In this document: positions 31,407 through 37,372 of the stretch, piece by piece
How the letters are laid out: the number at the start of each line of letters is the position of its first letter
Position numbering within the stretch: position 1 is the stretch's first letter
Assembly (NCBI GenBank): GCA_021158245.1
Contig: JAGGVB010000044.1
Span: 1-62,231 of the forward strand
Length of the DNA stretch: 62,231 nt
Reading direction: 5' to 3'
From: a bacterium
Lineage (GTDB): Bacteria > Zhuqueibacterota > QNDG01
Notes under the pieces: generated by a model
Database searches by the model: none
Told to the model about the DNA's origin: nothing
Seen by the model: the letters and a program-made list of their open reading frames with translations, nothing else
Position numbers and translations under genes: made by a program

Positions 31407-31435
31407 TTGACAATTTGCGTGATTCAAAGTACATT
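31407..31435 (+). promoter_or_regulatory. Candidate sigma-70 promoter of gatE-gatD
   Basis: TTGACA (31407-31412) and TACATT (31430-31435) are separated by 17 bases; the -35 is perfect and the -10 matches 4 of 6. The leader to ATG 31528 would be about 85 bases. Confidence 0.5.
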
Positions 31436-31515: not shown

Positions 31516-31521
31516 AAGGAG
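31516..31521 (+). promoter_or_regulatory. Ribosome binding site that selects the gatE start
   Basis: AAGGAG lies 6 bases before ATG 31528. The upstream in-frame TTG 31492 and ATG 31495 have no such site, so the mature frame starts MPVLFDG. Confidence 0.75.
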
Positions 31522-31527
31522 CACAGA

Positions 31528-33495
31528 ATGCCCGTTTTGTTTGATGGTGCTGAAAATTTTGAAAAGAGTAAAAAAATTGTCGGCTATGTTAACAGAAAAG
31601 ATGCTGATACAGGCCTTTACAAGCGCTTGGGGTTCAAATGCGGGCTTGAGATTCATCAGCAGCTTGCCACTAAAAAGAAGTTATTTTGCCGATGCCCTGC
31701 AGGCTTGTACCACAGCGGAGATGATTACGATGCCGAACTTGTACGTCATATGCGTCCTACATTAAGTGAACTGGGGGAGTATGACGGCACAGCTCTGATG
31801 GAGTTCAAAACCAGAAAAAATATTATTTATCGCATTAAGTACGAATCAGCCTGTACTTATGATGTTGATGATACGCCTCCTTTTCCAATGAACAGGGAGG
31901 CTCTTTCAATTGCAATGGAGATTGCACTGCTTTTAAAATCTAATATAGTTGGTGAATTTCACATAACAAGAAAGCAGTATCTTGACGGATCAATTCCTAC
32001 GGGATTTCAGCGTACCGGTATTATTGGTATAGAGGGCGAGATTCCCCTTTCTAAAAAAACCGTCAGAATTATTCAGATCAGTATTGAAGAGGATGCGTGC
32101 AGGGAAGTTTCCGATGTGGGACATATGAGAATCTATACAACAGACCGCCTCGGTACTCCTCTTATAGAGATGGTAACCTACCCTGATATGAAAACACCTG
32201 ATGAAGCGAGAGATGCAGGACAGTATCTTAGATTTCTAACGAGAAGTACAGGCAAGGTGAATACAGGAATAGGAGCCGCCCGACAGGACGTTAATGTAAG
32301 TATTACAGGCGGGACCAGAATAGAGATAAAAGGTGTTCAGCGGATTTCATCCATTCCGGAACTTACCCATAATGAGGCTTTCAGGCAGAAAGCGCTTCTG
32401 CAAATAAAAGATATCCTTAATAAAAAAATTAAAACACCTGAGAAATGGACAATCCGTTCAGAGAGGCTCGCTTCAAACTTTTTATCGCCGCTGATCGTAA
32501 GAGCCATGGCAAAGGGGTTTGTCCTTACAGGAGTTAACCTTCCCTCATTTGAAGGAATCCTCTCCTTTTTTACTCAGCCGGGGCGTACTTTTGCAGACGA
32601 GATAGGCGACAGGTTAAAGGTAATTGCGTGTCTGGAACGGCCTAATATGGTAACATCGGAATCTCCGGAAGGAAGCATAAATGACCTGGATCTGCAAAAT
32701 ATCCGTGAGGCTTTAAAAAGCGCAAAAGGGGATGCTCAGATTGTTTTCTGGGGGCCTGAAGATGATGCTGCCACTGCAGTGGAAACAATTGAAGAACGAT
32801 GCAGAATGGCATTTGAGGGCATTCCTTCTGAAACGCGCAAATCCCTTTCTGACGGAACCACAATTTTTGAAAGAGTCCTTCCCGGGCCTGACAGAATGTA
32901 TCCGGACACTGATTCTGCTCCTATCCCGATTGATGATCCTTTAATTGAGGGAATTCGTAAAGAGCTTCCCAATTCTGTTGATTCCAGAATTAAACAGATG
33001 GTAGAGTGGCATGTGCCTGAAGATGCTTTCCTTTACCTGCTGCGGCGTAATTTATTTCCACTTCTTTCATGGATGATAATAGAGCATGAAATCGAACCAA
33101 AGATTGCCGGAAAAGTTTTGGGCCATATTTTGAGAAATACGGAAAGAAGAATCGGCCCGGTTTCTTCCGAGCATTTGGAAAGAGTACATTCATGTATTAT
33201 ATATGTAAATGAAAAGAGTATTCGTCATAATATTTTAACAGAGATGATCCCGTTATGCCTGCGCTTTCCTTCCCTGAATTTGGATGAAATTTTAGGAGAA
33301 ACAGGTTTTATTACGCTTTCAGAAGACGAAATATATGAGAAAATACCGAATTTACGTAATGAATTCCGCATGAACAGGCGATCAAAAAGAGAAGGAGCTG
33401 AATCTGACTGGATTATGGGGGAGCTGAGATCTGTTGCCCTTGGCAATATGGATTTGAAGGAGCTGCGCAAAGCTGTTGAGGGAGGTTCTCTATGA
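31528..33495 (+). CDS. gatE: Archaeal-type Glu-tRNA(Gln) amidotransferase subunit E
   Basis: The 655-residue protein is the kinase/transamidase subunit that phosphorylates Glu on tRNA(Gln) and replaces it with an amide. It has the GatB/GatE core (LGFKCGLEIHQQLAT, KLFCRCP, DDTPPFPMNREAL, ITRKQYLDGSIPTGFQRT, RQDVNVSI), then the AspRS-like insertion found in GatE but not GatB (about residues 280-430, with GPDRMYPDTDSAPIPI at its end), and a helical tail with the YqeY-like end WIMGELRSVALGNM. GatB is about 480 residues and lacks the insertion, so GatE is preferred. It is ATGA-coupled to gatD. GatDE is regarded as an archaeal enzyme; finding it in an otherwise bacterial neighbourhood is the main oddity. 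Confidence 0.93.
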   Translation: MPVLFDGAENFEKSKKIVGYVNRKDADTGLYKRLGFKCGLEIHQQLATKKKLFCRCPAGLYHSGDDYDAELVRHMRPTLSELGEYDGTALMEFKTRKNIIYRIKYESACTYDVDDTPPFPMNREALSIAMEIALLLKSNIVGEFHITRKQYLDGSIPTGFQRTGIIGIEGEIPLSKKTVRIIQISIEEDACREVSDVGHMRIYTTDRLGTPLIEMVTYPDMKTPDEARDAGQYLRFLTRSTGKVNTGIGAARQDVNVSITGGTRIEIKGVQRISSIPELTHNEAFRQKALLQIKDILNKKIKTPEKWTIRSERLASNFLSPLIVRAMAKGFVLTGVNLPSFEGILSFFTQPGRTFADEIGDRLKVIACLERPNMVTSESPEGSINDLDLQNIREALKSAKGDAQIVFWGPEDDAATAVETIEERCRMAFEGIPSETRKSLSDGTTIFERVLPGPDRMYPDTDSAPIPIDDPLIEGIRKELPNSVDSRIKQMVEWHVPEDAFLYLLRRNLFPLLSWMIIEHEIEPKIAGKVLGHILRNTERRIGPVSSEHLERVHSCIIYVNEKSIRHNILTEMIPLCLRFPSLNLDEILGETGFITLSEDEIYEKIPNLRNEFRMNRRSKREGAESDWIMGELRSVALGNMDLKELRKAVEGGSL

Positions 33496-34874
33496 AAGAT
33501 GCGTTAAAAGGATACAAGGGTGAAGCAAGAAAGGTTTTGGAATCCTTTAATATTAGAGTGTGGAGCGATGCTGAGATTGAAACTACGAGAGGGGCATTTA
33601 AAGGTATTGTCCTGCCCCGTTCCGAAAATGATGATGATAAGCACATTGTGCTTAAATTAATAACAGGCTACAATGTAGGAATTAATGTTAATACAGTTAA
33701 ACAGGCCAGGGAGATCGGGTATAAAGAAGCTCATTATCAAATTCCGGAAAAAGAGTTTCCATTATCTCCCGATAAACCAAATGTCAAACTTTTTGGTACT
33801 GGCGGTACAATAGCATCACGTCTTGATTACAGGACCGGAGCTGTAATACCAGCATTTTCTCCGGGAGAACTTTATGGAGCTGTACCTGAACTTGCAGATA
33901 TATGCAATATATCTACTGAAAAATTGTTTGCAGTTTTCAGTGAGAATATGGGGCCGTCTCAATATATAGAACTTGCAAAAGCAATCGGCCGGGAGATTGA
34001 GAATGGCATTGACGGCATTATTGTCGGACACGGTACTGATACAATGCACCACACTGCTGCTGCTCTGTCATTTATGGTACAGGATTCTCCTGTGCCTATA
34101 GTTATGGTAGGTTCCCAGCGTTCGTCTGACAGGCCGTCATCAGATGCTGCGTTAAATTTAATTCACTCTGCAACCGCAGCAGCGCATTCGGATATTGCAG
34201 AAGTTCAGGTCTGCATGTTCGGTCCTACTTCTGACGAGTACGGACTGCTGCATAGAGGAACCAGAGTCCGGAAGATGCACTCTTCCTACCGTTCGACTTT
34301 CCGTACAATAGGAGATATTCCTCTTGCCATGGTGACAAGGGATAAAGTAACACCTCTGCGTAATGATTATAGCCGCAGAAGAGGGGATAAAAAAGTAAAA
34401 ATACTGCCTTATTTTAATGAAAAGGTTTCTATGATTTACTACTACCCCAATATGCAGTCTGATATTATTGATTCCCTTGTAGATAATGGTTATAAAGGGA
34501 TTGTAATTGCAGGTACTGGACTGGGGCATGTAAATAAACCGGTTTATCCTGCAATAAAGAGGGCTGTTAAAAAGGGTGTTTCAATTTATATGACTGTACA
34601 GACCCTGTGGGGATATGTTCACATGTTTGTCTATGATACAGGAAGGGATTTAATGGCAAAGGGAATTATTCCTGCTGAGAATATGCTTCCTGAGGTTGCA
34701 TACATTAAGCTTGGATGGGCTTTGGGGCAGACCGATGATCCTGAAAAAGTCAAAGAACTAATGCTGACTCCGGTAAACGGAGAGATTACCGAACGCGAGC
34801 CTTATAACGGATATCTTGTATTTCAGGGCGGGATTCCCGAAGTGGAGGAGTTTTTAAAGAGAATTCATAAGTAG
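33492..34874 (+). CDS. gatD: Archaeal-type Glu-tRNA(Gln) amidotransferase subunit D (asparaginase-like)
   Basis: This 460-residue subunit releases ammonia from Gln or Asn for GatE. The N-terminal 90 residues form the small beta-barrel GatD adds to the asparaginase fold (RGAFKGIVLPRSEND and HIVLKLITGYNVGI). The asparaginase core follows with the nucleophile Thr in LFGTGGTIASR, the Thr-Asp pair in GHGTDTMHHTAAAL, and the Lys in RVRKMHSSYRSTF; these correspond to Thr101, Thr177, Asp178 and Lys254 of the Methanothermobacter enzyme. Plain bacterial asparaginase lacks the N-terminal domain. It overlaps gatE by 4 bases and is followed by a terminator, so the two form a closed operon. Confidence 0.94.
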   Translation: MKDALKGYKGEARKVLESFNIRVWSDAEIETTRGAFKGIVLPRSENDDDKHIVLKLITGYNVGINVNTVKQAREIGYKEAHYQIPEKEFPLSPDKPNVKLFGTGGTIASRLDYRTGAVIPAFSPGELYGAVPELADICNISTEKLFAVFSENMGPSQYIELAKAIGREIENGIDGIIVGHGTDTMHHTAAALSFMVQDSPVPIVMVGSQRSSDRPSSDAALNLIHSATAAAHSDIAEVQVCMFGPTSDEYGLLHRGTRVRKMHSSYRSTFRTIGDIPLAMVTRDKVTPLRNDYSRRRGDKKVKILPYFNEKVSMIYYYPNMQSDIIDSLVDNGYKGIVIAGTGLGHVNKPVYPAIKRAVKKGVSIYMTVQTLWGYVHMFVYDTGRDLMAKGIIPAENMLPEVAYIKLGWALGQTDDPEKVKELMLTPVNGEITEREPYNGYLVFQGGIPEVEEFLKRIHK

Positions 34875-34893: not shown

Positions 34894-34924
34894 AAAAAGA
34901 GATGCAGAGATGCATCTCTTTTTT
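34894..34924 (+). terminator. Intrinsic terminator after gatD
   Basis: AAAAAGAGATGCA pairs perfectly with TGCATCTCTTTTT around a four-base loop (GAGA), giving a 13-bp stem that ends in a T run, 20 bases after the gatD stop. Confidence 0.88.
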
Positions 34925-35096: not shown

Positions 35097-35915
35097 ATGC
35101 GTATAGGTATCTATCAGTTCAGTCCGGTATTCGGAGATAAAAAGACTAATCTTAATAAAATAGAAAATGCAGTTGCAGAGGTTAATGCAGACTTGCTTGT
35201 GCTTCCTGAACTCTGTATTTCCGGCTATCAGTTTACATCACAAAAAGAGGTAGCAGATTTAAGCGACATAGTGCCTGATGGGGAGAGTATAAAGAGGTTA
35301 GTCACTATTTCCAAAAAAACAGGAACTTTTATAGCCTCAGGCTTCGTTGAACAAGAGGACGGAAAATTTTATAACTCTTCTGTGTTTGCAGGCCCCAGAG
35401 GAATAGTAGGCATTTACAGGAAAAATCATCTCTTTTATGAAGAGAAGGAGTACTTTACTCCGGGGAATCTCGGGTTTCCTGTATTCTCAATTCCGGGAGT
35501 AAAAGTCGGAATGATGATATGTTTTGACTGGCTCTTTCCTGAGGCTGCCCGTTCTCTTGCTCTTAAAGGTGCAGATATAATTCTCCATCCTGCGAACCTT
35601 GTACTACCCTTTTGCCAGGATGCAATGATTACAAGATGTATTGAGAACGGAGTTTTTGCAGTAACAGCCAACAGAACAGGAACGGAAAAAAGAGGAGGGA
35701 AGCCTTCCCTCAGGTTTACAGGCCAAAGCCAGGTTGTTAATCCCAAAGGCGAGGTACTTTTTAAGCTGGGGGAGAATGTTGAATCCGTACAGGTAATTGA
35801 GATAGACCCTTCGCTTGCAGGCAACAAGATGATTACAGATGTAAATGATATATTTCTTGACAGAAGGCCGGACATCTACATTGATGATGTTCCGCCTGAG
35901 GAGACTGCAGGATAA
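35097..35915 (+). CDS. Carbon-nitrogen hydrolase (nitrilase superfamily)
   Basis: The 272-residue enzyme has the Glu-Lys-Cys triad of the superfamily: Glu in LLVLPELCISGYQF, Lys in YRKNHLFYEE and Cys in GMMICFDWLFPE. Such enzymes hydrolyse amides or nitriles; close bacterial groups include omega-amidases and N-carbamoylputrescine amidases, but the substrate cannot be read from sequence. The N-terminus is complete (MRIGIYQFSPVFGDKKTN) and there is no signal peptide, so it is cytoplasmic. AGGGTGA precedes the start. Its stop shares one base with the rtcB start (TAATG), which suggests co-translation with rtcB. Confidence 0.87.
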   Translation: MRIGIYQFSPVFGDKKTNLNKIENAVAEVNADLLVLPELCISGYQFTSQKEVADLSDIVPDGESIKRLVTISKKTGTFIASGFVEQEDGKFYNSSVFAGPRGIVGIYRKNHLFYEEKEYFTPGNLGFPVFSIPGVKVGMMICFDWLFPEAARSLALKGADIILHPANLVLPFCQDAMITRCIENGVFAVTANRTGTEKRGGKPSLRFTGQSQVVNPKGEVLFKLGENVESVQVIEIDPSLAGNKMITDVNDIFLDRRPDIYIDDVPPEETAG

Positions 35916-37372
35916 TGACTGCATTATGGGACGGCCCCCTTAAAAAAGTAAATGATTATCTGTGGAAGATCCCTGTTTCGTACGCAGAGGGAATGAATGT
36001 TCCGGGATTTATCTTTGCAGATGAAAAGATGATAGAGGATGTACGCAGAGATTCAGCTCCTCTTCAGGTTGCAAATGTGGCTCATCTGCCGGGCATCCTG
36101 AAAGGCTCTTTTGCAATGCCTGATATCCATTGGGGTTATGGTTTCCCAATCGGAGGAGTTGCTGCATTTGATATTGACAGCGGAATTATTTCTCCGGGCG
36201 GTGTGGGATATGATATAAACTGCGGCGTAAGGCTTATTAAAACCGATCTCGAAGAGTCGGATATCCGGGGAGTAATCCACACTCTGATTCAGGGGCTTTT
36301 CCAGAATATCCCAAGCGGCGTGGGCTCCACGGGGAAGTTGAAACTCTCTCAAAAGCAGGAGAGAGATGTATTAAGAGACGGAGCTGTGTGGGCAGTAAAG
36401 AACGGGTTCGGATGGGACGAAGACCTCCTTTTTACAGAAAACAGAGGTATATTTGACGGAGCGGATCCGTCCGCCTTGTCACAGCGTGCAATCCAGAGAG
36501 GCAGTCACCAGTTAGGCACACTCGGATCAGGAAACCATTTTCTCGAGATTCAGAAAGTAGAAACAATATTTGATAAGGAAAAGGCTGAAGCTTTCGGCCT
36601 GAGAGAGGGGCAAATCACAATAATGGTTCATACAGGCTCAAGAGGCCTTGGATATCAGGTATGTGACGACAGCCTTGATGATATGGTAAAGGCGATGGAC
36701 AAGTACTCTATCAAAGTACCGGATAAACAGCTTGCATCTGCTCCTGTTAACTCTTCTGAAGCTGAGAAGTATCTTGCGGGTATGGCTGCTGCTGCAAATT
36801 ATGCATGGGCCAACAGGCAGACAATTCTTCACTGGATAAGGGAAACATTTGAAAGAGTGTTTAATCAATCTGCAGAGAACCTGGGCATGCACATGGTTTA
36901 TGATGTGGCGCATAATATTGCAAAGTTTGAAGATCATTTAATTAACGGTCAAAAGAAGAAAGTCCTTGTTCACAGAAAAGGTGCAACCAGAGCATTCGGC
37001 CCTGAAAATCCCGATATACCTGAGCCTTACAGAAATACGGGACAGCCTGTGCTGATTCCCGGAGACATGGGTACTGCTTCTTATGTTCTTGCAGGTACAA
37101 AGTGTGCAGAGAAAGAGAGTTTCGGATCTACATGTCACGGAGCAGGCAGAGTAATGAGCAGACATGCGGCAGTAAGGGCTGCAAAAGGAAGATCTATTTT
37201 TAAGGAGATGGAAGAGAGAGGCGTTGTTGTTCAGAGCAGAAGCCGAAAAACTCTCGCAGAGGAATCTCCTGAAGCATACAAGGATATTGACAGAGTCGTC
37301 AATATTGTGCACAATGCCGGATTGTCCCTGAAGGTTGCACGAATGAGACCTCTCGGTGTGGTTAAAGGATAA
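35915..37372 (+). CDS. rtcB: RtcB-type tRNA/RNA ligase
   Basis: RtcB joins 2',3'-cyclic phosphate and 5'-OH RNA ends using GTP and Mn2+. The 485-residue protein has the family hallmarks: GSFAMPDIHWGYGFPIGGVAAFD, the metal Cys in GGVGYDINCGVRL, the HTGSRGLGYQ segment and the guanylated His in STCHGAGRVMSR, with the C-terminal VARMRPLGVVKG. No intein interrupts it. No archease gene, the usual activator, is next to it. Its partner in the transcript is a nitrilase-family enzyme upstream, and an orphan ExbD-type gene lies 15 bases downstream. A role in RNA repair or tRNA splicing follows from the family, not from context. Confidence 0.95.
   Translation: MTALWDGPLKKVNDYLWKIPVSYAEGMNVPGFIFADEKMIEDVRRDSAPLQVANVAHLPGILKGSFAMPDIHWGYGFPIGGVAAFDIDSGIISPGGVGYDINCGVRLIKTDLEESDIRGVIHTLIQGLFQNIPSGVGSTGKLKLSQKQERDVLRDGAVWAVKNGFGWDEDLLFTENRGIFDGADPSALSQRAIQRGSHQLGTLGSGNHFLEIQKVETIFDKEKAEAFGLREGQITIMVHTGSRGLGYQVCDDSLDDMVKAMDKYSIKVPDKQLASAPVNSSEAEKYLAGMAAAANYAWANRQTILHWIRETFERVFNQSAENLGMHMVYDVAHNIAKFEDHLINGQKKKVLVHRKGATRAFGPENPDIPEPYRNTGQPVLIPGDMGTASYVLAGTKCAEKESFGSTCHGAGRVMSRHAAVRAAKGRSIFKEMEERGVVVQSRSRKTLAEESPEAYKDIDRVVNIVHNAGLSLKVARMRPLGVVKG

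Follow-up and report, generated by a model that had tools for sequence, protein, structure and literature searches.

A gene pair resembling the archaeal tRNA amidotransferase GatDE lies in a 62,231-nucleotide contig from a bacterium of the Zhuqueibacterota (JAGGVB010000044.1, assembly GCA_021158245.1), analysed here at full length as the window. Open-access reviews from 2021 and 2022 call GatDE archaeal only (PMC9499178, PMC8007984), a preliminary description of this DNA had noted that GatDE is described as archaeal, and a full-text search of the open-access literature, with subscription papers outside its scope, found no report of a bacterial GatDE. The locus raises the question of whether the pair is a genuine GatDE and, if so, what it would amidate in a bacterial cell. 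The parts of the system are known, and NCBI models would already name the genes GatD and GatE. The following features were located in the window:

31407..31435 (+): promoter-like TTGACA-N17-TACATT with 10/12 matches, well placed upstream of gatE
31518..31521 (+): Shine-Dalgarno GGAG a few bases 5' of the gatE ATG, read from the sequence
31528..33495 (+): gatE, amidotransferase/kinase subunit, 655 aa; above the NF003107 and TIGR00134 cut-offs, best fold matches 2d6f and 1zq1
31618..32397 (+): first part of the GatE catalytic core, residues 31-290; mean bacterial identity 71%, conserved residues common with archaeal GatE
32398..32763 (+): GatE-specific insertion, residues ~291-412, GAD-like; aligned to archaeal GatE 2d6f and 1zq1
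32764..32967 (+): second part of the GatE catalytic core, residues 413-480, with FERxLPGPxRMYPDTD
32968..33492 (+): helical and tail domains of GatE (tRNA-binding), residues 481-655; conservation weak, pLDDT mostly >87
33492..34874 (+): gatD, asparaginase-like glutaminase subunit, 460 aa; TIGR02153, with GatD_N, Asparaginase and Asparaginase_C domains
33807..34274 (+): GatD active-site residues T106, T182, D183 and K261, invariant in 11 bacterial GatD and also present in Mth and Pab
34797..34871 (+): GatD C-terminal extension EPYNGYLVFQGGIPEVEEFLKRIHK, conserved in 11 bacterial GatD and absent from the aligned archaeal sequences
34894..34924 (+): intrinsic terminator-like hairpin and T-run, AAAAAGAGATGCAGAGATGCATCTCTTTTTT, 3' of gatD, read from the sequence

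At the level of family assignment, both proteins pass the NCBIfam equivalog cut-offs. GatE reaches 489 bits against NF003107 (cut-off 456) and 424 bits against TIGR00134 (cut-off 319.55), and GatD 517 bits against TIGR02153 (cut-off 324); against the GatB models, whose cut-offs lie above 314, GatE scores at most 132 bits. Both GatE profiles are matched by 52/52 relatives. The two genes overlap by the ATGA at 33492-33495, and the gatE start at 31528 is backed by the GGAG and by the same N-termini in relatives. The complete, ATGA-coupled pair with all four asparaginase residues in GatD, as proposed in the preliminary description, is thus borne out. The GatE-specific insertion claimed there is also supported: the Pfam GatB_N match is split over residues 37-473, the inserted segment aligns with archaeal GatE, and an AlphaFold2 model built from 52 bacterial GatE sequences (pLDDT 83, pTM 0.83) comes closest to archaeal GatE, with TM scores by target length of 0.75-0.79 as against 0.52-0.65 for all GatB chains. 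The model also matches AspRS weakly, as the insertion would predict. Pfam GAD is matched in 19/52 relatives, but not in the present GatE; GatB_Yqey is likewise matched in 28/52 relatives and unmatched here, where the tail fold is predicted and its motif is degenerate.

The closest solved chains to GatE and GatD are those of archaeal GatDE from Methanothermobacter (2d6f) and Pyrococcus abyssi (1zq1), which share with the present pair both subunits, the domain order, the insertion, the asparaginase active site and the GLEIHQQL/EED/DRLG core (GLEIHQQL, DGSIPTGFQRT, EEDACRE and DRLGxPL in the first part of the bacterial core). Bacterial GatD differs from the archaeal protein in its extra conserved C-terminus. 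Bacterial GatCAB has the GatB_N catalytic domain in common with GatE, and a YqeY-type tail with part of the bacterial GatE family; it differs in that the glutaminase of the present system is GatD, not GatA, and in that GatE has the insertion and falls far below the GatB cut-offs. Type I/II L-asparaginases share the catalytic domains of GatD, whereas GatD also has a GatD_N domain and its gene overlaps or accompanies gatE. At the sequence level, a genuine GatDE pair encoded by a bacterial genome is confirmed, with both genes intact and the catalytic residues kept. It is GatDE by family, an assignment that does not imply membership in the Gln-tRNA pathway.

Degraded forms of the locus occur in relatives: in L098 (9631-10936, genome G045) the start of GatE is fused to the end of GatD, and L077 (4130-5107) holds a shortened GatD without its middle. 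They represent an apparent decay of the locus or an assembly error. Such partial copies would favour the view that the present pair is a contamination, a chimera or a decaying relic. This view is extremely improbable, given that neither gene is truncated here or lacks a conserved residue, that the pair is present in four genomes of the same order, and that composition is flat across 31.4-34.9 kb, where a break had been named beforehand as the sign of chimerism with archaeal DNA.

Regarding expression, the pair had been credited with its own promoter and terminator. The terminator stands: the hairpin after gatD is clean by reading, though it was missed by an automatic terminator scan. The promoter stands in part, since one 10/12 site lies in the right place, but promoter-like sites in the region are no more numerous than in shuffled sequence; the site at 31407 is a plausible gatE promoter. 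The segment 31457-31510, 5' of gatE, contains a perfect anti-Shine-Dalgarno match, GGAGGTGAT, which could start a very short leader ORF. Downstream (35097-37372) lie nitrilase-family (CN_hydrolase) and RtcB RNA-ligase-family genes with a one-base mutual overlap, which are not conserved beside GatDE in other genomes. Comparison of about 100 loci gave no conserved neighbour besides GatD as a functional clue, and the GatDE unit is retained with no further conserved partner. Genes found between gatE and gatD in relatives (metF-like, hflKC-like, unrelated) are family-specific. In family f17 (L084, 6260-9300, and also L087) a membrane-type protein gene parts gatE from gatD, and L084 additionally has metF-like and methylene-THF-reductase-C-like genes between them.

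A first proposal for the function of the pair, put forward in the preliminary description, was that the lineage depends on GatDE as its main route to Gln-tRNA(Gln). The own genome (G000; 3.2 Mb, 95% complete, 233 contigs) was searched for the components of each route. Profile searches gave no match to GatB (only GatE was recovered) and none to GatA or amidase, while the search controls gave matches; the absence of GatCAB is thereby upheld, and GatDE is the only tRNA-amidotransferase-type enzyme found. A complete GatDE without GatCAB speaks for dependence, but the same genome encodes a complete GlnRS (813 bits, cut-off 425.8), together with a full-length AsnRS (572 bits, cut-off 414) and two bacterial-type GluRS genes. 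For archaeal GatDE, the reported recognition elements on tRNA(Gln) are A1-U72 and the D-loop (PMC9499178). In contrast to the tRNA(Gln) suited to GatDE that had been predicted, both tRNA(Gln) genes of the own genome (UUG and CUG) carry U1-A72 and G73, GlnRS-type as in E. coli, and the archaeal A1-U72 is absent. The same U1-A72 and G73 are found in both tRNA(Gln) species (UUG and CUG) of CP070777, a complete GatDE-positive Zixibacteria genome, and in the UUG species of CP070756. No special or archaeal-like tRNA(Gln) occurred among the tRNAs read in these three genomes, which include part of the low-scoring matches. Since GlnRS and a GlnRS-type tRNA(Gln) are present, GatDE is unneeded for Gln-tRNA(Gln) in this bacterium, and since AsnRS is present it is unneeded for Asn-tRNA(Asn). 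Dependence on GatDE is already contradicted by glnS and must be regarded as highly improbable.

Several further observations concern the synthetases and tRNAs. The GlnRS of the own genome (C176, L031; 695 aa) bears a C-terminal tRNA_bind (EMAP/Trbp111-like) domain (Pfam 7e-25), also found in L200 (G016) and L180/L203 (G017), so that three GatE-positive genomes of the order have it, as against 0/5 GatE-negative ones with GlnRS read; the GlnRS of G008 is similar in length to those bearing the domain. A tRNA cluster surrounds gltX2 in L068 (G000 C215, 5338-10008), in the order Ser(gct), Ser(tga), gltX2, Gln(ctg), Arg(tcg), Glu(ctc), Arg(acg), Ser(cga), Ser(gga), Ala(cgc); G017 (L180) shows partial conservation of the Gln/Glu/Arg section. 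An initiator-like tRNA (CAU) at L071 858-937 (G000 C201) is mismatched at C1-U72, its anticodon stem is weakened and its variable region long; it is either an unusual gene or an assembly error.

The distribution of the family points the same way as the own genome. When GTDB species genomes were scanned with two clade-specific peptides, at least 587 genome loci encoding bacterial GatE were found. Among the matches listed (80 of at least 587) all are bacterial, and they belong to Bacteroidota, Zixibacteria, Cloacimonadota, Aminicenantes, Acidobacteriota, Bipolaricaulota and Fibrobacterota, and include the complete genome of Oceanirhabdus sp. W0125-5 (Clostridiaceae, a Clostridium relative). Within the own phylum, GatE exceeds the cut-off in 22/82 genomes, every one of which also has a glnS match (22/22, a few fragmentary at contig ends); this co-occurrence is not significant alone (p 0.18) because GlnRS is common there anyway, being over the cut-off in 53/60 GatE-negative genomes. 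GatD, by comparison, is over the cut-off in 21/22 GatE-positive genomes (p about 3e-17), the last of the 22 having a shortened GatD, and the two subunits co-occur even on different contigs (family f11, G063). Across several phyla, 18 named GatE-positive genomes, picked from the closest matches and not a random sample, gave a glnS match in 17/18 and lacked GatB in 16/18. In the own order, four genomes carry the GatDE pair with no GatB among the matches listed, and six GatE-negative genomes have GatB; elsewhere in the phylum, GatDE and GatB coexist in genomes. The earlier alternative between an old transfer from archaea and a little-known GatDE-using lineage is hence too narrow, as the family is widespread in bacteria and nearly always found beside GlnRS. 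The probable role of GatDE in this bacterium, as in hundreds of others, is that of an accessory amidotransferase.

The history of the family was approached by a maximum-likelihood GatE tree containing two archaeal rows only, in which the bacterial GatE all fall on one side of the branch leading to those rows. The Bacteroidota group together and enclose two Aminicenantes rows, and the own phylum is divided among no fewer than two types far apart in the tree: the own order, f9 and f22 group with other phyla, and f11, f16, f17, f19 and f20 are placed apart. This arrangement suggests that GatE has been transferred between bacteria.

The acceptor of the bacterial enzyme was considered in the light of how constraint is distributed along GatE. 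Mean identity among bacterial GatE is ~72% in the catalytic core, 40% in the insertion and 31% in the tail, and bacterial GatD averages 75%. At matched core divergence (58-62% identity, 88 pairs), the bacterial insertion retains 28% and the tail 16% (maximum 25%), whereas an archaeal pair at 61% core identity retains 52% and 37%, the archaeal comparison being two sequences, both from structures, so that its tail rate comes from one pair. Similarly, same-phylum GatB at 67-71% core identity keeps a tail identity of 45-53%, against an average of 29% for bacterial GatE at 66-72%. The core also contains 36 positions at which 52 bacterial GatE agree almost without exception on a residue that neither archaeal sequence has, and these cluster in the pocket segments RHMRPTLSE, YDGTALMEFKT, CTY, YLDGSIP and ACREVSD. 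The tRNA(Gln) of bacteria is itself very conserved, so a surface binding it should not drift as the GatE tail does. The simplest reading would be strong selection on the chemistry and the pocket, with selection on the parts that grip the tRNA being relaxed or shifting. The net charge of the GatE tail was also tried as a discriminator between bacterial and archaeal proteins and gave no useful separation.

Because the tRNA-gripping domains have drifted and the catalytic pocket is near-invariant, we infer that the archaeal-type Glu-tRNA(Gln) has ceased to be the acceptor. Old chemistry combined with a changed or relaxed acceptor would fit the bacterial sequences, and on balance we lean slightly towards the bacterial GatDE subfamily being an accessory amidotransferase whose acceptor has changed in this way. 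The more specific proposal, that the GatDE family of GlnRS-containing bacteria has left Gln-tRNA synthesis and amidates some other glutamyl or aspartyl group, either tRNA-borne or non-tRNA, is made tentatively, its chances falling a little short of even. As judged from conserved residues, homology and fold, GatD would hydrolyse glutamine or asparagine and free ammonia, which would pass to GatE; GatE with ATP would activate a carboxyl and then amidate it, and this carboxyl would most likely be the gamma-carboxyl of a glutamyl group. No candidate acceptor was found in the analysis. Against a changed acceptor, the YqeY-type tail of 28/52 relatives leaves tRNA binding possible, and the equivalog models that all members match bear the name Glu-tRNA(Gln) amidotransferase.

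In the main rival reading, GatDE remains a conventional Glu-tRNA(Gln) amidotransferase with a backup or repair role: one GluRS would mischarge tRNA(Gln), and GatDE would correct the product beside GlnRS. In favour, GatDE has the fold, active sites and family-level scores of a Glu-AdT, and the tail fold is retained in the model. The own genome has two gltX genes, with gltX2 immediately 5' of tRNA-Gln(CUG) both there and in G017; but this adjacency is missing in the GatE-positive G008, only one GluRS is seen in several GatE-positive genomes, and GluRS copy number does not track GatE. The host tRNA(Gln) lacks the archaeal A1-U72, and a tRNA(Gln) ligand would be expected to keep the tail conserved as in GatB, which is not what GatE displays. 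Repair is possible on this evidence, although rather unlikely.

The established specificity of archaeal GatDE for tRNA(Gln), together with the AsnRS of the own genome, speaks against a tRNA-dependent asparagine synthase, in which GatDE would amidate Asp-tRNA(Asn) like GatCAB in some AsnRS-containing bacteria. The tRNA(Asn) of the own genome does have U1-A72, outside the phylum GatB is missing from most of the GatE-positive genomes examined, and bacteria with AsnRS, GlnRS and GatCAB but without asparagine synthetase offer a precedent (PMC4206432). Neither AsnA nor AsnB was found in the 2.0 Mb of CP070777 searched (genome 3.2 Mb). Taken together, asparagine synthesis is an improbable role.

The bacterial family differs from its archaeal counterpart in the GlnRS and U1-A72 tRNA(Gln) of the present host, in the 36 near-invariant core residues and in the weakly conserved insertion and tail. 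A large bacterial GatDE family beside GlnRS contradicts the archaea-only statement, which the reviews use in arguments on the last common ancestor and on archaea never having acquired GlnRS. Automatic annotation would give these genes a role in translation that they probably lack, and the family raises the question of what a tRNA amidotransferase does in cells that charge both glutamine and asparagine directly.
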